DNA from: a virus
DNA: 37,971 nt
Strand: one strand, 5' to 3'
Virus record (IMG/VR): IMGVR_UViG_3300028178_000007
Span: 1-37,971 of that record
Both the position numbers and the translations under genes were made by a program. Below the pieces are notes generated by a model. The model saw only the letters and a program-made list of their open reading frames with translations, was not told where the DNA came from and did no database searches. Each line of letters starts with the position of its first letter. Positions within the stretch are counted from its first letter, which is position 1. Below, one piece after another: positions 2,890-34,292 of this stretch.

Positions 2890-3153
2890 TTAAACGTCAG
2901 TAGCCGCTAAAAATAAGTTGATATTAGTCTTTAAATAAGTGTACATATTTGCTATAGCAGTAGAAGTATCATATGGCACTTGATAGGTAAAAATATCTAA
3001 ATATTTATCTCCAGCTTCATATGATGCTATGTCGTGCCAAATAGCAATATTAAATGTAATACCTGAAGCATCCCCAGCAAAGTTTAGTATCTTTGCGTAT
3101 GCAGTTGGAAAGTTAATCCCAAACTGACTATCGTAACTAAGTTGTAAAGCCAT
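2890..3153 (-). CDS. Small fibre-cluster protein, unknown
   Basis: I place the start at the ATG at 3153 (MALQLSYDSQFGINFPTAYA, 87 residues). It follows a good GAGGAAAT ribosome site, whereas the longer frame runs back into the upstream fibre gene and has no site. The protein is a compact alpha/beta domain with an even number of beta strands (ITFNIAIWHDIASY, YLDIFTYQVPY) and a C-terminal helix ending NLFLAATDV. I recall similar short proteins beside fibres of marine phages. Function unknown; it is probably virion-associated. Confidence 0.75.
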   Translation of the reverse strand: MALQLSYDSQFGINFPTAYAKILNFAGDASGITFNIAIWHDIASYEAGDKYLDIFTYQVPYDTSTAIANMYTYLKTNINLFLAATDV

Positions 3154-4676: not shown

Positions 4677-6191
4677 TTAGATATTAACTAGTGTTTTAAT
4701 TACTTTAAATACCGTAGAAGTTGCTTGAGCAGGAGTAGCAAGTAATTGAATATTAGTAGATAAGATATTAGCATCAAAACTGGCTAACGAAGTTGTCAAT
4801 GTACCAATATTAGCATTACCATATTCAACAATACTTGCGTTAGTACCATCATGAATAACAAGAATCTCGCATACTTGGTAAGAAGTACCAGAAGTTACTT
4901 GAACAGTATATTTAATTGAACGATAAGTAGCTACTAGATTAGTATCAAGTACTTGGTTAGCTGTAGTTGCAGTAGTAGTTACTGTAGCCGAACCAATAGC
5001 ACCATTAGTTAAAGAACTTATAGCATCAGTAATACCATAACCAGCTAGTGTAGTTGGATTTGTTCCAGCAGTTACACGACCTTTAGCATCAGTTGTTACA
5101 GAACGATAAGTACCAGCAGTTCCTACAGAAGCTAATGTAGTGGCGATAGTTCCTGTTGATAAGCCTGTAGAAGTTGCAGTAACATCACCTGTAATTGCTA
5201 AAGCTTGAGTTGAAGCAAGTTGAGCTACGTTTGTGACATTGCCTAAACCAACATCGGTAGCGACAAGAGTAACAACTCCCACTTTACCTGCTACTGAAAC
5301 TACTGCTTCAGAACCACCTTGTAATAAATCCCAAGTAGTTCCATTAGAGATAATCATATCCCCAACAGACCATACAGCATTACCATCAATAGTGGTAGTA
5401 CCAGCAGTTGATACTTTATAATACCAACCAGCAGTAGGAGAACTTGCAGAAGTTAATGTGGGAGTGTTAGTTGAAGCGTTCCATAAACCTTTATAAACTA
5501 ATGAACCAGCAGCACCAGCCCCACTAGCAGCAACAGTAACTCTACCTTTAGCATCAACGGTAATATTAGCATTAGTATAAGCTCCAGCAGCGACACCACT
5601 TGAGGCTAATGTAGTTGCATTACCAACAGAAGTAACATCACCTGTTAAGTTAGCATTGGTCACAACAGTAGCAGCAAAAGAACCTGTACCTGAACCTGTT
5701 ACTCCACCTGTTAATGTAATAGTTTGGTCGCCAGTATTAGAACCAGATAAAGTAGTGATACCTAGAGCTGTTCTTATAGTTGCTCCAGTTTCATTACCTG
5801 TATTAGTTCCTGATAAGTTAGCAACAGCAGTATTAGCAAGCATAGCATTAGAGATAGAACCAGTACCTAATAAGCCAGTTATATCAGCTTGAGCAACAGC
5901 AGTATTTCCAGTAACTCTGCCTTTAGTATCTAATGTAATCTTAGCAAAAGTAGCTCCTGTACTTTGAGCTACAGTTGCTAATGTAGTTGCTACAGCTCCG
6001 GCTACAGTTGTAATGTCGCCAGTTAAAGCTGGCATTTGTCCAGCAGGTACTGTTCCTGTAGTTAAATTAGAAGCACTAGCAGCAAATTGTTTTGTTACTG
6101 CATCAGTAGCATTTGTTGGGTCAGCTAAACCAATAATACTTAAACCATTAGCATCTAAACCACTTTTAGCTATAAATCTTTTTTGAGTCAT
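4677..6191 (-). CDS. Tail fibre protein, type B head
   Basis: A 504-residue fibre. Residues 1-40 (MTQKRFIAKSGLDANGLSII, then ADPTNATDAVTKQ) share the attachment module of the 492-residue fibre. A repetitive shaft follows with LSGTNTGNET and LSGSNTGDQT, and three copies of a unit ending (V/L)D(A/T)KGRVT, a very common phage fibre repeat. At about 233-330 is a module with YKGLWNASTNTPTL and WDLLQGG. The last ~95 residues (from QVLDTNLVATYRSIKYTVQV to FKVIKTLVNI) are homologous by eye to the C-terminus of the neighbouring 142-residue protein. An AAGGAT site precedes the start. The role is host recognition at the distal tail. Confidence 0.9.
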   Translation of the reverse strand: MTQKRFIAKSGLDANGLSIIGLADPTNATDAVTKQFAASASNLTTGTVPAGQMPALTGDITTVAGAVATTLATVAQSTGATFAKITLDTKGRVTGNTAVAQADITGLLGTGSISNAMLANTAVANLSGTNTGNETGATIRTALGITTLSGSNTGDQTITLTGGVTGSGTGSFAATVVTNANLTGDVTSVGNATTLASSGVAAGAYTNANITVDAKGRVTVAASGAGAAGSLVYKGLWNASTNTPTLTSASSPTAGWYYKVSTAGTTTIDGNAVWSVGDMIISNGTTWDLLQGGSEAVVSVAGKVGVVTLVATDVGLGNVTNVAQLASTQALAITGDVTATSTGLSTGTIATTLASVGTAGTYRSVTTDAKGRVTAGTNPTTLAGYGITDAISSLTNGAIGSATVTTTATTANQVLDTNLVATYRSIKYTVQVTSGTSYQVCEILVIHDGTNASIVEYGNANIGTLTTSLASFDANILSTNIQLLATPAQATSTVFKVIKTLVNI

Positions 6192-15067: not shown

Positions 15068-15748
15068 ATGTCATTTACTATTAAATTTGATAATTTAGAA
15101 CAAATTAGTAAGAATCTTTCTGCTATGCCTTCTGAAGCTTTAAATAAAGTTGTTCCTGATATTAACTTGGCTATATCTAAATTCCATAATACATTAGAAA
15201 CTAGAGTCAAATCTAATTACACTTTAAAAAGAGAATTAGGTTCTGTACAAATAGGTAGTTTAGCTAGTTCTAAAACCAGTATTGGTTTAGAGTATGAGTT
15301 AGTTTATAAGGATGTTCCCGAACCTTTAATTGGTTACTCATATAAACAATCTGATTTCTTTACTGTTAAGAATAGTATTCCTTTTTTAACTAGAAGTGGT
15401 TTTGTTAAATACACTCCAGTTAATAAAGCTAGATCAGTTAAGGTAAATAGCAGAAATGCTGGAAGTCCTGCTATACCTAGAGTAAGAACTAAATCAGGTA
15501 GGTCTAAGTTTCTTGCTACTGTTGGTGGTAAGAAAAGAATCATGGCTAGATTAACTCCAGATACTTGGGCTTCTATGCCTTCTTTTAAAAATCCTGATGG
15601 TATACGCGCACCTTATAAAGAGTTATTCGGTCCTAGTTTAGCTACTTTAGCAGAGATAACTTATACTAAAGATAGAAAAATGGAAGTTGCTAGAGATCAT
15701 TTAGCTGATGAAGTAAGAAATGCTCTTATTAGAGGTATGAGTTTATGA
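15068..15748 (+). CDS. Minor tail/tail completion protein, gpZ-like
   Basis: A 226-residue basic protein. An N-terminal helix pair (KFDNLEQISKNLSAM, then NLAISKFHNTLETRVKSNYT) is followed by strands with YELVYKDVPEPLIGYSYKQ, a Lys/Arg-rich segment (RSVKVNSRNAGSPAIPRVRT), then the signature PYKELFGPSLATLAE. G-P-S-(L/V) with preceding aromatic is typical of lambda gpZ and related tail-completion proteins, which tie the tail terminator to the connector. It follows the capsid gene and overlaps the next start by ATGA. Lambda Z is 192 residues. The family call is by motif and position. Confidence 0.75.
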   Translation: MSFTIKFDNLEQISKNLSAMPSEALNKVVPDINLAISKFHNTLETRVKSNYTLKRELGSVQIGSLASSKTSIGLEYELVYKDVPEPLIGYSYKQSDFFTVKNSIPFLTRSGFVKYTPVNKARSVKVNSRNAGSPAIPRVRTKSGRSKFLATVGGKKRIMARLTPDTWASMPSFKNPDGIRAPYKELFGPSLATLAEITYTKDRKMEVARDHLADEVRNALIRGMSL

Positions 15749-25935: not shown

Positions 25936-27485
25936 TGGCAATTATCTACTTAGCTGATTTGGTTATAGCTACTTCTGCTGGAGTAGCAACAACTTTAAAC
26001 TATTCTTCTGGTAAGACTGTTACAGTTTCTACTGTAGTATATTCAGCTAAGATTAGTCAACCAGCCTTTCTTAGCCAAAGCATTAGTATTGATTCTTCTA
26101 TGGGAGGAGCTGTAAGTTCCTCTTTAGGAGAACTTATATTAACTAACACTAAACGTGATCTTGATTATCTTAGAACTTATATCTTTGAAGGTAAAACTTT
26201 AACTTTATTTTCTTATGATACAGTTTCATTAGTTAAAACACAAATACTTATACAGATAATAGAACAAGCTACTTTTGAATGGGATAAGGTATCAGTAAGA
26301 CTAGAAAATAAATCTGCTAGTTTAGATATAGCTTTACAAACTAAAAAGTTTCTTGGAACTAATGTTTTACCTCTTGGAGTTGAAGGTGTTATTGATTTAA
26401 AAGATAAACTTAAACCATTAGTATTTGGGCGTGTTAATAACATGACTCCAATACTTGTTAATACGAGTAAGTTAATCTATCAAATAAGTAGTGAACCAAC
26501 TGAACAATTAGTATCTGTAATGACTAGAGGTGCTTATGTTAGTTTATCAGGTAATATAATAACTACCTATGCTGCTTTTATCAGTGATACTATAGGTTTA
26601 GTTCCTGAAGGTGGTTATTACACTTTCTTTTCTGATGCTACTGGTAGTTTCTTTCGTCTAGGTATGGAATCTGAAGCAGTAACTTGTACTGTATGGGAAA
26701 AAATATCTTCATTAAGTAATTCTCCTGCTCAAGTTATTAAACGTATCTTAACTTATGCAGGCATTAGTAATTATAGTGCTGCTGATATACTTTATATTGA
26801 TAGTAAAGTTGCTGATAATATTGGTATTTTTATTGCTGATGGTCAAACTATAGCAGATGCTATAACTAGTATTTGTGCTTCTATAGGTGCTTGGTGGGGA
26901 TTTGACCAAACTAATACTCTTAGATTATATTACTTTGGTGATACTACTGCTGCTGTCTTAGCTACTATACATACTAAAACTACTCCAGATAAATACGGAC
27001 TTACTTCTTTTGAACTTAGTAATGCTACTGTAAACGGCAAACTAGATGTAGTTAAAGAAGTTAAAATAGATTATGCTAAGAATTATACTGTACAAGATTC
27101 AGCTAGTATAGCAGGAATAATTACTACTACTGACTTAGAAAGAGCTACTTGGCTAGGTCAGGAATATAGAACTGCAAGTGCAGTTACCACAACTCTTTAT
27201 CCTAAGAATCAAATATTTCAATATCAAACACTTCTTAATAGTCAAACTTCTGCTGTATCTGAAGCTCAAAGAATACTTGCACTAACTTCAGTTAAAAGAA
27301 ATATATTAACTATAACTGCAAGAATGACTTTAACTGAACTTAATGCTTTATATCCTTGTGGGATAGTTACAATAGTTATTCCTAGATATGGCTTCGATGC
27401 TGGTAAGAAATTTATAATTACTAGTATGGAAATTGATTATTTAAATTATACAGCAAACTTAACTCTTTGGGGAGAAGTAGTTTAA
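25935..27485 (+). CDS. Baseplate hub/tail tip protein
   Basis: A 516-residue protein between tape measure and central fibre. The N-terminal part has ISIDSSMGGAVSSSLGELIL, then NTKRDLDYLRTYIFEGKTLT, a pattern (fG-x-(I/L)-x-L-x-N-x-x-x-x-LD-x-L-x-x-y-x-F-x-G-(R/K)-x-(V/L)-x-(I/L)) that I recognise from phage hub-type tail proteins. The middle has KDKLKPLVFGRVNNMTPIL and a conserved YTFFSDATGSFFRLG segment. The C-terminus is beta-rich, ending ANLTLWGEVV. It stands in place of lambda M, L, K and I, none of which is seen. The probable role is the ring to which the central fibre binds. Both ends are TAATG overlaps. Confidence 0.75.
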   Translation: MAIIYLADLVIATSAGVATTLNYSSGKTVTVSTVVYSAKISQPAFLSQSISIDSSMGGAVSSSLGELILTNTKRDLDYLRTYIFEGKTLTLFSYDTVSLVKTQILIQIIEQATFEWDKVSVRLENKSASLDIALQTKKFLGTNVLPLGVEGVIDLKDKLKPLVFGRVNNMTPILVNTSKLIYQISSEPTEQLVSVMTRGAYVSLSGNIITTYAAFISDTIGLVPEGGYYTFFSDATGSFFRLGMESEAVTCTVWEKISSLSNSPAQVIKRILTYAGISNYSAADILYIDSKVADNIGIFIADGQTIADAITSICASIGAWWGFDQTNTLRLYYFGDTTAAVLATIHTKTTPDKYGLTSFELSNATVNGKLDVVKEVKIDYAKNYTVQDSASIAGIITTTDLERATWLGQEYRTASAVTTTLYPKNQIFQYQTLLNSQTSAVSEAQRILALTSVKRNILTITARMTLTELNALYPCGIVTIVIPRYGFDAGKKFIITSMEIDYLNYTANLTLWGEVV

Positions 27486-30400
27486 TGACACTTACATTAT
27501 ACAGAATAACAGCTACAAATAAACTAGTTGTTGTAGATAGCGCAACACCTCCTTCTGGAAGTACTGTAGTTACTTTACCTGCTTCCAATACTCTTGTTAA
27601 TACAACTAACTTTTATAGAACTATTGATACTAATAGTTATGCTGGTTGGACTCCTAATGACTTACAACCTACTGTACCTGAAGTATATGATACTACACCA
27701 CCTATATTAATTTTAAATGCTGATGCTCAAGCATTTACTTTTGATGGTCTGGATGTTCTAGCTCCTACTAATCAAGCTATTATTTTTAGTCTTAATAAAC
27801 AAAATATACTTGATGCTACAGTATGGAGTACAGTTTCAGATGTAGGAGGAGTTACAAATCTATTAACAACTCCTAATGATACCTCCGCTATGCTAACTTC
27901 TGGAGCTTTTGGAACTAATAATTTCGTAGAAGTAACAGCTACTTGTGGTTTAGAAAGTGATACCTTTACCATAATGAGGTTAACTGATGGTACTACTGTC
28001 CTTGCTGGTTATCTTACTAATGAAGCCCATACTGTACCTGCTACAAGTACTGGGGTTACTACTGCTAGTGGTACTTTTACTGGTGCTGGCGGAACTTTTA
28101 AAGTATTTTATGGTTTAGTTGATGTGACTACAGCTTGTACCTTTGCTGGAATTGCTGCTAACTGTACTGCAACAGTATCTAGTGTTGGTGTTTACGCTGT
28201 TACAGCTATTGGAAGTACTACTACAGATATAGCTACTTATACTATGACTGCTACACATGCTACTTATGGTACTTTTACTAAGGTATTTAGTGTCACTAAA
28301 AGTAAAGCTGGTTCTAGTAATATAACTGCTATATTAAGTAATGATACCCATGTATTTCCTGCTACATCTGCTGGTGTTGTAGGTAGTTATGCTGGCTCTG
28401 GTACTTTAATTAATATTTATAATGGCATCACAGAATTAACTTATGATGGAATTGGTACTGCTATTGGTTCTTGGAAAGCAGTAGCTACTTCTAGTCAAAC
28501 TCTTACTATTAATGATTTTACAACTATAGGTACTTTAACAGACTCTGGAATATATCTAACTGTTGGAGATCATGCTGGAATGGTATCTACAATAGATGCT
28601 GCTTCTATTACCTATGTTATAACTGGTACTGATCTTAATGGAACTACATTTAGTCAAACCGTTCAACAAAGTTTTAGTAAAAGTAAGGCTGGTGCGACTG
28701 GCGCAACTGGTCCAACTGGGGCAACTGGAGCAGTAGGTTCTGCTGGTACTTCAGTTTATATAGGTTATATTTATTTACAAGCTGCTGCAACACCAAATCC
28801 AACAGCTCCAAGTGGAGGTACTTATAATTTTAGTACAAATACATTAACAGCTCCAGCTTTATGGTCTATAACCCAACCAAGTACAACTACTACACCTACT
28901 TGGGCAGCTGAATATACTTTTAGTACTGCTACTCCAGCTACTTCAGTTACAGCACTAACATGGGGTAATGTCCATATTGAAGCTGTTAAAGGTATTGATG
29001 GTACAGCAGGAGCAGCAGGAGCAGCAGGTGTTAATGGAACAAGCATTGCTACAATAGAGTTATATGCTAATAATGGCTCTATTACTGCACCAGCTTTACC
29101 TGTTACACCTACATACACTTTTAGTACAGATACTTTATCTGCGGTAACAAATTGGTCAAGAACTATTCCGGCAAGTACTACATTTCCTACTTTTAGAACA
29201 GTATATACATTTACTACTACAACTCCAACAGTTGCCATAACTAGTGGTACTTGGTCAACAGCATTAATTGCCGCTCAGAATGGTACTAATGGAACTAATG
29301 GTACTAACGGAACTGCTGGCACTAATGGTACTAATGGAGATACAGTAGATATTATATTTGTTCGTCAAGCTAATGGAACTACTCCTGCTGTTCCAACTGC
29401 ATCTACTGGTGTAGCCAGCGCACCTATACAATGGTATGGTAGTGTTGCCGAAGCTAATACCGCTGGAGGTACTACAACACCATTATGGTCAAGTACTGGT
29501 ATTAAAGCTTTAAATGCTGGAAACTATGTTTGGGATACTCCTGTTAGAATAGAAGGTACTTCTGTTACAGAAGTGAGTGTGTATGCAAGAGTGGTAGCAG
29601 GAACTACTCCTACTATTACAGCAAATGGAACATATACATTTGGAGCTGCAATTCCATTAAGTAGCGCACCTACAGGAGTTAATGCTACTTGGACTGCTGC
29701 TATTCCTACTAACAGTAAAGACCCATTATGGGTATCAAGAGCTGTAGTATCTACTGTAGCTGGTAATACTGCTGCTGTTGCTATTTCTAGTTGGTCTACC
29801 CCAGTCATTAGTACTTTAAATGGTAAAACTTATAATATTACTGTTACAGGTGGTATTAGGAATGTTACTTTTGATGCTGCTGGAGCTAATCCAACTCCAA
29901 CTCAAACTGCTTTTACAGTAGCATTAACAGAAGATGGTACAGTTGTAACTCCTACTTCATTTGTTTGGACTGCTGGAGGACATTTAACTACTGTTGGTTC
30001 AACTGGTTCAACAACAGCAATTTTTACTCCTGCTATTGGAACTACTTTTAGCGCAAGTAATAATGATTATATCAGTATAAGTATAGTATATGCTGGACAA
30101 ACTATAGTTCAAACAATACCTATAGCAGTTACTAAAATAGGGTCTACTGGAATACAAGGGCTTCAAGGGATTCAAGGAGCTTCTGCTACAACATCAAATT
30201 TATCTAATAGTAATCATTCTGTACCTACTTTATTTGATGGTAGTGCTGGTGTCTTTACTGGCTGTGCTACTACTATGTCAATTTATATAGGCGGAACTGA
30301 TGATTCAGCTAATTGGACAGTTGTAGCAACACCATTAGTAGGTGCAGGAATAACTGGCAGTTTAACTGGAAAAACATATACTATAACTGCTATGACTGCT

Positions 30401-32302
30401 GATGTAGGAACAGTTACTTTAGTTGCTTCTAAAGCTACCTACTCAAATCAAACCCAAGTATTTAGTATATCTAAATCTAAAGGTGGAGTATCCTATCAGT
30501 TACTTTTATCTAATACGGTTATAAAGAAAGCTGGTGGTGTTCTTACTCCTCTTGCTGCTACTGGTATAGTATTAACTGCTACAGCAATTTCTACTGCTGG
30601 AGTTACTAACTATACTGGGCGATTTAAAATATATTTAAATGGTAGTGGTACTGCTGAAGTTATAGCTGGTATAGCTGGTGATCTTAATACTTATACTTAT
30701 ACTGGTTATTCTGCTTCAACTACTAGTATTAAGGTTGAATTATATACTGCTGGTGGAATTACATTAGTTGATAGTGAAACTATATTAGTTGTTGTTGATG
30801 GTATAGATGGAGGTCAGATATATTATAGCTCAATCCCACATAGTGCAACAAATTTACCATTACCAGTAGTAGGAGAACAATGGTGGGATACTGTATCAGG
30901 AAGTTTATTTCTTTATTATAATGATGGAACTACTTCTGGCTGGATTGCTTCTAACTTAGGTGTAACTGGACCACAAGGTACTACAGGTAGTCAAGGTTTA
31001 CTTGGACCGACTATAGATATCACAGCTGATAAAATATTAGCATTTTATTCTATAGATACTTTATTAGTTCCAAGTCAAAGTGCTATAACATTAACTGCAA
31101 CTGTTACTAATATGGGAGCCAGTACTCCAACTTATGCTTGGAGTCAAATTGGTGCTGATGTAGCTCCTACTGCAAGTACTGGAACTACTTATATTATTCC
31201 TAGTACTTGTTTTTCAACTGTTGAAACAGCTAATAAAGCTATTCATATTAGTTGTATTGTTACCTATAATGGGATTTCTTATAAAGATACGGTTACTATC
31301 AATAGATTAAATACTTCTACTGCTGCTAAGAGTGGTATTAATCTATTAAGATACAGTGGTACATTTGATACTTCTGGTTTAGACGGTTGGACTTCTAATG
31401 GAGGTGTTGTTTCTATAGACGCTACGGTACTTTATGGAGGAAAGAAAACTTTAAAAATAGTAGGAAATTCTGGTATTGGTAATAATAATTTTCCAAGACT
31501 TAAACCAAGTACTACTTATACTGTAAGTGCTATGGTTAAAGGTACTACTTCTTGGGGAAGTGCTTACGATAATACATTACATATACAGAATTGGTCTACT
31601 GAAGTTCCTTCTAATGTTCATTTAGAAACTCCTATTATATGGGATACTGCTGTTGTAGCAAATACTTGGAAAACTATATACCAAACATTCACTACTTGTG
31701 CTAGTGCTGATCTAACTTTTTGTCATTTTTACTTCTTTGGGAGTAACTTAGCTACTCTTAATGTTGCTTATGTTAAACTAGAAGAAGGAAGTATTTATTC
31801 TGAGTGGAGTCCTGCTCCTGAAGATGTATTAGCTGGTATTGCTACTGCTGGTACTACTGCTACTTGGTCTGGTGTTACTGGGGTTGTTGTTACTACTACT
31901 CAAGTACAAGATTATGCTATCACTAATTCAGTATATACTACTAATTATGCTAATGTTGATTTAACCCCTTATTATGCGTTAATAGGTAGATGGTTTTTTC
32001 CATCTAATTTAGCTGTTAGACGGCTTTTTATATCTATAACTATAACTTATAGTATTTTACAATATCAAGGTAGTGCAATAAATTTTAGTTTAAATATGGC
32101 AGAAACTAATGGGGGTGTTGAGACAGGATTAGCTACTTTTGCTCATGGAGTATACGATGCTGGTTATGATTTTCCACATACTTTTGTATATAATACAGGT
32201 ATTACTGTTAGTAATAATTTAAATTATTGGAGTTTATATGCTTCGGCTTATTTTGTGAATGTTAGTAATGTAGCAATAATGCTTATGGAATTGAGAAAAT
32301 AA
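27485..32302 (+). CDS. Central tail fibre/host specificity protein (gpJ position), modular with collagen-like linkers
   Basis: A 1605-residue protein. The ATG at 27485 in the TAATG overlap is the start; an earlier GTG at 27467 has no support. Residues ~160-390 hold two Ig-like units sharing (N/D)xxHx(V/F)PATSxGV; a third, SNHSVPTLFDGSAGVF, lies near 910. Collagen-like Gly-X-Y linkers lie near 401-420, 503-520, 600-618, 886-900 and 1162-1176. Between them are units of about 80 residues (IYLQAAATPNPTAPSGGTYN; IELYANNGSITAPALPVTP). Residues ~1283-1450 (GINLLRYSGTFDTSGLDGWT, then VKLEEGSIYSEWSPAPED) look like a carbohydrate-binding jelly-roll common in phage tails. It has no lambda J N-terminal ring domain that I can see. 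Likely the distal host-binding fibre. Confidence 0.85.
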   Translation: MTLTLYRITATNKLVVVDSATPPSGSTVVTLPASNTLVNTTNFYRTIDTNSYAGWTPNDLQPTVPEVYDTTPPILILNADAQAFTFDGLDVLAPTNQAIIFSLNKQNILDATVWSTVSDVGGVTNLLTTPNDTSAMLTSGAFGTNNFVEVTATCGLESDTFTIMRLTDGTTVLAGYLTNEAHTVPATSTGVTTASGTFTGAGGTFKVFYGLVDVTTACTFAGIAANCTATVSSVGVYAVTAIGSTTTDIATYTMTATHATYGTFTKVFSVTKSKAGSSNITAILSNDTHVFPATSAGVVGSYAGSGTLINIYNGITELTYDGIGTAIGSWKAVATSSQTLTINDFTTIGTLTDSGIYLTVGDHAGMVSTIDAASITYVITGTDLNGTTFSQTVQQSFSKSKAGATGATGPTGATGAVGSAGTSVYIGYIYLQAAATPNPTAPSGGTYNFSTNTLTAPALWSITQPSTTTTPTWAAEYTFSTATPATSVTALTWGNVHIEAVKGIDGTAGAAGAAGVNGTSIATIELYANNGSITAPALPVTPTYTFSTDTLSAVTNWSRTIPASTTFPTFRTVYTFTTTTPTVAITSGTWSTALIAAQNGTNGTNGTNGTAGTNGTNGDTVDIIFVRQANGTTPAVPTASTGVASAPIQWYGSVAEANTAGGTTTPLWSSTGIKALNAGNYVWDTPVRIEGTSVTEVSVYARVVAGTTPTITANGTYTFGAAIPLSSAPTGVNATWTAAIPTNSKDPLWVSRAVVSTVAGNTAAVAISSWSTPVISTLNGKTYNITVTGGIRNVTFDAAGANPTPTQTAFTVALTEDGTVVTPTSFVWTAGGHLTTVGSTGSTTAIFTPAIGTTFSASNNDYISISIVYAGQTIVQTIPIAVTKIGSTGIQGLQGIQGASATTSNLSNSNHSVPTLFDGSAGVFTGCATTMSIYIGGTDDSANWTVVATPLVGAGITGSLTGKTYTITAMTADVGTVTLVASKATYSNQTQVFSISKSKGGVSYQLLLSNTVIKKAGGVLTPLAATGIVLTATAISTAGVTNYTGRFKIYLNGSGTAEVIAGIAGDLNTYTYTGYSASTTSIKVELYTAGGITLVDSETILVVVDGIDGGQIYYSSIPHSATNLPLPVVGEQWWDTVSGSLFLYYNDGTTSGWIASNLGVTGPQGTTGSQGLLGPTIDITADKILAFYSIDTLLVPSQSAITLTATVTNMGASTPTYAWSQIGADVAPTASTGTTYIIPSTCFSTVETANKAIHISCIVTYNGISYKDTVTINRLNTSTAAKSGINLLRYSGTFDTSGLDGWTSNGGVVSIDATVLYGGKKTLKIVGNSGIGNNNFPRLKPSTTYTVSAMVKGTTSWGSAYDNTLHIQNWSTEVPSNVHLETPIIWDTAVVANTWKTIYQTFTTCASADLTFCHFYFFGSNLATLNVAYVKLEEGSIYSEWSPAPEDVLAGIATAGTTATWSGVTGVVVTTTQVQDYAITNSVYTTNYANVDLTPYYALIGRWFFPSNLAVRRLFISITITYSILQYQGSAINFSLNMAETNGGVETGLATFAHGVYDAGYDFPHTFVYNTGITVSNNLNYWSLYASAYFVNVSNVAIMLMELRK
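29282..29337 (+). repeat. Tandem Gly-Thr-Asn collagen-like repeat
   Basis: Near-perfect 9-bp units (GGT ACT AAT with third-base changes) encode GTNGTNGTNGTAGTNGTNG in the central fibre. It is a flexible or triple-helical linker and a recombination or slippage point. Confidence 0.85.
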
Positions 32303-33242: not shown

Positions 33243-34109
33243 ATGGTTGATGAAACTGCTAGTAATATCGATTTAAATTCTTTATTGAAAGGTGTTAATA
33301 TGGGTAATTTATTAGGTGGAACTGGTTCTGAAAGTGGTGGACTAGGTGGTGGTTTGTTACTTGGTCTATTACTTGGTAGAACTAACTTACTAGGTGGTGG
33401 AACTGATGCTGCTGCGATTGCTGCTGCTGATCGTCTAACTGCTGCTGATGTACAAAACATAGTATCTGCAAATGCTAACTCACAAACATTAGGTAATGTT
33501 GAAGGTGAGATTTGGAAAGCAGAAGGTCAGTTACAAGCTGCTTTAGCTGCTCAAAGCAATACTGCTCAAATCACCACATTAAATGCTGAAATTGCTAACT
33601 TACAAGGTCAATCAGGTATTCTTGCTAATATAAACAGTGTCGCTAAAGACATAATCAATGAAGTACATGAAACTGGTGATGTTGTTAATGCTTCTGTCAC
33701 TACATTAGCTGCTGCTCAAGCTGCTGGTTTCGGGGTTGTTAATACTAACATCGCTCAAAGCACTTATGCTACTTCTCTTGCTATTGCTAATGATGGTGAG
33801 AAAACTAGAGCTTCTATTGCTGCTTTGGCTGCATCTATTCCTAATGCTAGAGAACTTGACTTACAACGTCAATTAGCAGTAGCTTTGGATGACCACAGAC
33901 ATACTGCTACAAGAGGTATAGTTGAGTCTGGTAATGTTAATGTAACTACTAATGTTGCTCAAGCTCAATCACAAGCACAGTTGCAACAACAAGCAATTAC
34001 TACTAATGGTTTACTTGGTCAATTAATAGCTGCACAACATGCTACTAATACTGCTGTAACTATTGGAAATGGCAATCGTCCTACTCAAACAGCAAATAAT
34101 GTTGCTTGA
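33243..34109 (+). CDS. Probable virion protein, Gly-rich N-terminus, possible TGA readthrough
   Basis: A 288-residue protein with an excellent AGGAGA site. Residues ~20-52 are Gly/Leu-rich (GGTGSESGGLGGGLLLGLLL), followed by Ala-rich helices (TDAAAIAAADRLTAADVQNI) and a long coiled-coil stretch. Near 205-265 come RELDLQRQLAVALDDHRH, then NVNVTTNVAQAQSQAQLQQQ, a run I associate with abundant structural proteins of several phages (LxxxLxxxxxxxxH, then VxxxVNQxQxQxQQ). It ends at TGA 34107-34109, but the same frame is open for another 60 codons. It has its own leader with three hairpins. A virion role is inferred; no enzyme motif is seen. Confidence 0.75.
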   Translation: MVDETASNIDLNSLLKGVNMGNLLGGTGSESGGLGGGLLLGLLLGRTNLLGGGTDAAAIAAADRLTAADVQNIVSANANSQTLGNVEGEIWKAEGQLQAALAAQSNTAQITTLNAEIANLQGQSGILANINSVAKDIINEVHETGDVVNASVTTLAAAQAAGFGVVNTNIAQSTYATSLAIANDGEKTRASIAALAASIPNARELDLQRQLAVALDDHRHTATRGIVESGNVNVTTNVAQAQSQAQLQQQAITTNGLLGQLIAAQHATNTAVTIGNGNRPTQTANNVA

Positions 34110-34292
34110 ACTCCCGTAGCATTGGATGATCTTTTTATTACTAATATAACTAACGTAACTGAAGTACAATCTTGTGCAGATGAATCAGAAGATGCTTCAA
34201 ACGAAGTTGATAAAGATAAGTCTAGTGGGAACAATAGTAATGGTGGAGGACATGGTAAACATAGTCCTCGTAGTGGTTTAAAACAATTGTAG
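34107..34292 (+). other. In-frame extension past TGA: readthrough domain candidate
   Basis: After TGA (34107-34109, context GCT TGA ACT) the frame continues for 60 sense codons to TAG at 34290-34292. The reading is protein-like: TPVALDDLFITNITNVTEVQ, then an acidic part (CADESEDASNEVDKDK) and a Gly/His/Ser end (GNNSNGGGHGKHSPRSGLKQ). Codon choice resembles neighbouring genes, no alternative gene with a start and ribosome site fits the gap, and such gaps are otherwise rare here. Either suppression of UGA, a recent nonsense mutation or a sequence error could explain it. Confidence 0.55.

Follow-up and report, generated by a model that had tools for sequence, protein, structure and literature searches.

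Genes at the locus and the frame beyond the TGA

The window, the whole 37,971-nucleotide stretch of viral DNA analyzed here (IMG/VR record IMGVR_UViG_3300028178_000007), belongs to a tailed phage: it encodes a GpA-type terminase, a lambda-like portal, a head protease, a major head protein and a 2386-aa tape measure. We focused on the gene that follows the tail-fibre gene (27467-32302), hereafter the main gene (Table 1). AlphaFold2 predicts its product to be a single long helix, approximately residues 67-272 (67-229 and 234-272) with pLDDT 70-90 along most of its length, preceded by a disordered Gly-rich start. The protein had no match in PHROG, Pfam or PDB, nucleotide and protein searches with the window gene found no match among named phages, and no relative came up in pattern-based scans covering one genome per prokaryote species. 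The place of the gene behind the tail-fibre gene and the long predicted helix point to a location in the virion, so the original description of the gene as virion-like is plausible. Our best guess is that the protein forms a coiled-coil fibre or whisker that is part of the virion.

Table 1. Features at the locus, in window coordinates.
Feature	Position	Strand	Remarks
Main gene, 288 aa	33243..34109	+	Gly-rich N-terminus, long predicted helix, conserved C-terminus QTANNVA, TGA stop
Putative leaky TGA, +4 base A	34107..34109	+	Shared by all 21 members that have an in-frame extension
Putative readthrough extension, 60 codons	34110..34289	+	Codon use; comparison with L003/L017
N-terminal extension motif PVALDDLFIT	34113..34142	+	Counterparts in L003, L026, L027
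Terminal motif RSGLKQL, conserved	34269..34289	+	Family form [RKQ][NYHS]G[LI][VKIL]x[LI]
TAG stop of the predicted extended form	34290..34292	+	Overlaps putative ribosome-binding AGGA of next gene
Next gene, 124 aa	34301..34675	+	Conserved neighbour; LEQQLA-type N-terminus in recoding genomes

The original prediction was that the frame of the main gene runs on past its TGA through 60 open, gene-like codons to a TAG, filling a gap that holds no other gene, and this is what we found. The ORF list has a single further entry of 50 aa or more in the gap (34122-34292, TTG start), and that entry is the extension again, whose sequence (TPVALDDLFITNITNVTEVQSCADESEDASNEVDKDKSSGNNSNGGGHGKHSPRSGLKQL) would bring the protein to a total of 349 aa. 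As had been proposed, such an opening is unlikely to arise by chance: shuffling the bases of the extension stretch produced 60 open codons in 0.5% of cases, and 0.1% of the stretches read off frame within genes of the window were equally open. By codon use, the extension scored 0.44 bits/codon, while 60-codon pieces of the window's genes scored 0.50 ± 0.20 in frame and −0.72 ± 0.31 off frame; none of the off-frame pieces scored as high as the extension. Summed over 16 extensions, the codon log-odds were +232 bits in frame 0 versus −125 and −190 bits in the other two frames. Comparison with the homologue L003/L017 gave a dN/dS of 0.49 (shuffled-substitution P = 0.02), which is only moderately low for the window's own extension. 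AlphaFold2 modelled the extended form as the long helix followed by a disordered tail (mean pLDDT 63). The window's extension lies in frame 0 and not in a shifted frame, as a −1 frameshift extension would require.

Stop codon, terminal peptide and context across the family

A first search of viral contigs retrieved six homologues (L001-L006, the same contigs as L020, L025, L017, L019, L018 and L016, respectively). All six end in TGA and carry an in-frame extension, of 13, 15, 18, 28, 61 and 139 codons. Searches with wider alignments, followed by the removal of copies, expanded the family to 83 distinct members from metagenomic phages, the main gene being one of them. An in-frame extension follows the stop in 21 of the 83, and in 21/21 the stop is TGA. 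Twenty of these extensions carry a shared motif in frame 0, [RKQ]-[NYHS]-G-[LI]-[VKIL], usually at the very end; the remaining one (L125) is homologous but lacks it. The other members comprise 9 with TGA and no extension, 49 with TAA and no motif, 2 with TAA and the motif in the −1 frame (L023 and L024), 1 with TAG and the motif in the +1 frame (L116), and 1 with TAG and no motif. The motif thus follows the stop in frame 0 in 20/30 TGA members versus 0/53 TAA/TAG members (Fisher 4e-12, members counted without correction for relatedness). L125 also has a TAA at 3139, within the N-terminal part of the family protein, in what is otherwise a good homologue; this TAA may be an error or a genuine break.

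The window extension ends in HSPRSGLKQL, and in relatives the terminal peptide takes forms such as RNGLKxLKK or RYGLVSLK. Corresponding ends are PSPRNGLVNKKV in L003, DAKRNGLKILK in L026, GHRRNGLKEIKRTE in L027, KPIRNGLKELKKDK in L056, VVQHGIKVIE in L100, KEVKYGLKILERP in L119, TTKRYGLVYYKGK in L001, KPKKYGLVLITTEI in L002, KMKRYGLLILKTEK in L004, PKQHGLVTITKGK in L005, NRYGLVSLGSKSR in L028 and NRYGLVSLKEKG in L103. The codons of the motif vary synonymously, with CGT/CGA/CGG/AGA, GGT/GGA/GGC and TTA/TTG/CTG/CTA/CTT all in use. This variation of the Gly, Leu and basic codons shows that the motif is kept as a peptide, in the frame set by the TGA. We had also considered TATGGTTTA after the stop as a DNA or RNA element, a candidate that we dropped because its codons vary synonymously across relatives.

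The linkers ahead of the motif are hypervariable. The longer extensions share another motif just after the TGA, P-V-x-x-D-D-[LI]-[FYI]-I-[TN], found in the window, L003, L027 and partly L026; the counterparts of PVALDDLFIT are PVAFDDIFIT (L003), LGFDDLIIN (L026) and PSVSIDDIYIT (L027). Their middle part is acidic or polar. L006 has its motif (QSGLVILQ) first, ahead of a collagen-like stretch. That collagen-like extension ends at a second TGA-A, after which 24 in-frame codons (TGGSKRSASEKVSKTTIVRKTSKK) lead to a TAA (5288-5365, L016 contig), so L006 possibly has two consecutive leaky stops. L044, a member without the motif, has at its stop a TAATG that starts a separate 274-aa collagen-like ORF (from 3721), as if the collagen-like domain were delivered by its own gene.

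In the tree, the recoding members form two clades, and all members of both have the extension in some frame; a single origin is compatible with the AU test (p 0.19). The extension is absent from most of the wider family and so is not essential to the protein. Extension-free homologues do exist, as the original prediction had allowed for as a refutation, but they lie outside the two recoding clades and mostly end in TAA-T or TGA-T. Inside the clades only three homologues have the motif out of frame; none of the three has TGA, and in two the motif lies next to a −1 slippery site. Among the recoders the stop is conserved, and the in-frame ORF behind it is under coding selection. In recoding genomes, the window's included, the next gene carries an additional LEQQLA-type segment at its N-terminus; in extension-free genomes the neighbour is instead of the MLADLLKVI type and lacks this segment.

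Stop type and context both favour readthrough. In E. coli, TGA is the leakiest stop and is read mainly as Trp (PMC11126739). A U at +4 is described as part of an extended termination signal in bacteria (PMC5289835) and is reported to reduce bacterial read-through (PMC5289835; PMC11126739). The +4 base of the 21 recoders is A in 16, G in 4, C in 1 and never T, whereas in the 9 TGA members without extension it is T in 7, G in 1 and A in 1 (Fisher 1.8e-5, without correction for relatedness). T also occupies +4 in 43/49 TAA members and, overall, in 50/58 TGA/TAA relatives without extension. Thus, the recoders carry a leaky form of the stop and the others a tight form. We identified no stimulating 3' RNA structure: Rfam gave no match, and the sequence right after the TGA is hypervariable.

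The motif in shifted frames and rival explanations

Three relatives inside the two recoding clades have no TGA: L023, L024 and L116. L023 and L024 belong to the window's clade. In L024, frame 0 reads AAC GTA AAG TCT TAA GGT, and a −1 slip from AAG to AAA enters GTC TTA AGG TAT GGT TTA ATT TCA CTT AAA, that is V-L-RYGLISLK. In both, RYGLISLK lies in the −1 frame directly after GTA_AAG, which provides the slippery tetramer A_AAG just ahead of TCT/TCA TAA; A_AAG is the strongest −1 tetramer in E. coli (PMC4066793). A TAA two codons upstream of the slip site closes the −1 frame in L023 and narrows the slip window there to A_AAG alone; the −1 frame of L024 extends farther upstream without a stop. 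The motifs of the two differ by two bases, both synonymous in the −1 frame. Loss of the extension through a one-base deletion of an older TGA is possible, but simple loss is less likely, given the A_AAG directly before the shifted motif. L116 belongs to the other clade, where it adjoins the TGA users L119-L121, and carries TRNGLVLLE in an open +1 frame with a codon score of +3.4, versus −12.5 and −9.8 in the other frames. There is no obvious slip site at CTG_TAG_G in L116. The +1 frame of L116 (3857-4080) is open through the motif and into the next gene, which it overlaps. From their sequences, L023/L024 and L116 would reach the peptide by frameshifting. Two separate losses of the TGA have kept the motif in an open shifted frame, which would be hard to explain unless the extended product matters.

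We weighed readthrough against reinitiation, a code change or suppressor tRNA, selenocysteine, and error or decay (ALTERNATIVES). If ribosomes terminated and reinitiated, the extension would be a separate small protein begun just after the TGA. In-frame ATGs do occur near the extension start in L006, L019, L026, L100 and L125 (at extension codon 1, 3, 4 or 5 in L026, L006, L100 and L125), and an AGAGG-like site lies upstream of the ATG in L100 and L125. However, thirteen rows representing eight distinct lineages have no ATG, GTG or TTG ahead of the motif; among them are the closest relative L017, L056 and most of the short forms. The window offers just a TTG at extension codon 5. The extension stays in the frame of the main gene in 21 members, a constraint that reinitiation would not impose. 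We therefore consider reinitiation improbable. Decay is less probable still: the extension would once have been part of the gene and the TGA would be a mutation or, as the original prediction itself envisaged, a sequencing error. The dN/dS of the window's extension is compatible with this, not being very low, but 20 further distinct members, on independent contigs, have the same TGA and an in-frame extension, which excludes a sequencing error; the motif is held through synonymous change, and in nearly all extended members the extension stops just before the next gene.

A reassigned or efficiently suppressed TGA, in a code 4 host or through a suppressor tRNA, would extend all copies of the protein. 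TGA stops 6 of the window's 36 likely genes; besides the main gene it ends 5 others, including those at 15746-15748 and 2524-2526 that had been cited as ordinary uses. Such stops are rare and are mostly backed by another stop shortly downstream, which would suit a reassignment. On the other hand, the other genes of the window contain 0 internal TGA versus 114 TGG in 11,556 codons, so TGA is not a sense codon in the window, in line with the original exclusion of whole-genome recoding. Neither the window nor the flanks of the relatives yielded a tRNA gene, and the shifted-frame motif in relatives better fits a minority product, making reassignment very unlikely. Insertion of selenocysteine, for which the codon UGA itself speaks, is extremely unlikely: the sequence after the TGA is hypervariable and only 12-18 codons long in several relatives, Rfam gave no match that would indicate a SECIS hairpin, and the relatives with the motif in a shifted frame lack the UGA. 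Neither chance nor sequencing error accounts for the pattern, and neither do reinitiation, a code change or selenocysteine.

Proposed mechanism and known recoding systems

Taken together, these results make it highly likely that the TGA at 34107 is a programmed leaky UGA stop, through which a long coiled-coil protein, probably of the virion, would also be made in a minor extended form. The minor extended form that had been suggested gains support from the recurrence of the TGA, the shared motif and its synonymous change. Most ribosomes would halt at the TGA and release the 288-aa protein. A minority would insert an amino acid, most likely Trp via near-cognate tRNA-Trp, and continue for 60 codons into the 349-aa form, in which a disordered polar linker would carry the terminal peptide RSGLKQL. 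By analogy with Q-beta A1, where about 1 in 15 proteins is extended (PMC8067240), the extended share would most likely be a few percent. Through mixed oligomers, the structure would then display the peptide in a few copies. That the peptide is conserved and the linker variable suggests a conserved binding partner, and the peptide would dock onto another phage or host component; the LEQQLA-type next gene is a possible partner.

The rare longer form is probably made on purpose, and close relatives seem to reach the peptide by frameshifting. We lean, with some reserve, toward a broader interpretation of the family: a single docking peptide would be attached to a minority of a fibre-like protein by interchangeable routes, mostly UGA readthrough, −1 frameshifting at A_AAG in one branch and +1 frameshifting near UAG in another, the linker being free to vary from nothing to collagen-like repeats. 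The selected trait, the family suggests, is a minority of protein with a fixed peptide, whichever recoding route is available. Recoders and relatives constitute a natural experiment on the context of bacterial readthrough, and the +4 contrast between them could guide a search for further cases. They also suggest that gene callers cut real parts off phage proteins, here including a collagen-like domain.

Extension of structural proteins by recoding in dsDNA phages has so far been known as frameshifting. In the open-access papers searched, no tailed dsDNA phage turned up with conserved UGA readthrough; the novelty of the present case is a lead, short of proof. The nearest named proteins are homologues without an extension. 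With relatives such as L006 as tblastn queries, and only with relatives as queries, we reached phiPLPE gp38 of an Iodobacter phage ("putative tail-fiber") and At2 XLQ30922 of an Acinetobacter phage, which align along the main protein (hhalign probability 98-99%, E 3e-16 and 8e-15). Both end at the same place as the main protein, but they lack the extension and the next gene comes directly after the stop.

Among recoded proteins, the Q-beta coat/A1 pair resembles the mechanism proposed here in that a phage structural gene ends in a leaky UGA, where Trp is inserted to give a minor form with a C-terminal extension (PMC8067240). Q-beta, however, has an ssRNA genome, its coat protein is unrelated and its readthrough domain is folded, whereas here a dsDNA phage coiled-coil protein would gain a short disordered tail and a terminal peptide. 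The long helical protein of this tailed phage, which has no family or PDB match, shows no homology to the leviviral coat protein or A1 domain, so the comparison originally drawn with A1 is apt for the mechanism and not for family membership. T7/T3 10A/10B and the cps and tsh proteins of Listeria phages PSA, A118 and A500 are recoded minority C-terminal extensions in tailed dsDNA phages, with both +1 and −1 shifts used among relatives (PMC5009743); they differ in using frameshifting, in adding Ig-like or other domains to capsid or tail proteins, and in protein family. Lambda G/GT likewise sets a ratio of short and extended protein within a tail module (PMC5009743), but neither product is in the virion, the route is −1 frameshifting and the protein is another one. 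In retroviral gag-pol, the same extension is reached by readthrough (MuLV) or by frameshifting (others) (PMC5009743), although these are eukaryotic viruses that use UAG with a pseudoknot and make a polyprotein instead of a short tail. The mechanism is thus like that of Q-beta A1 or T7 10B, and the protein is unrelated to theirs.
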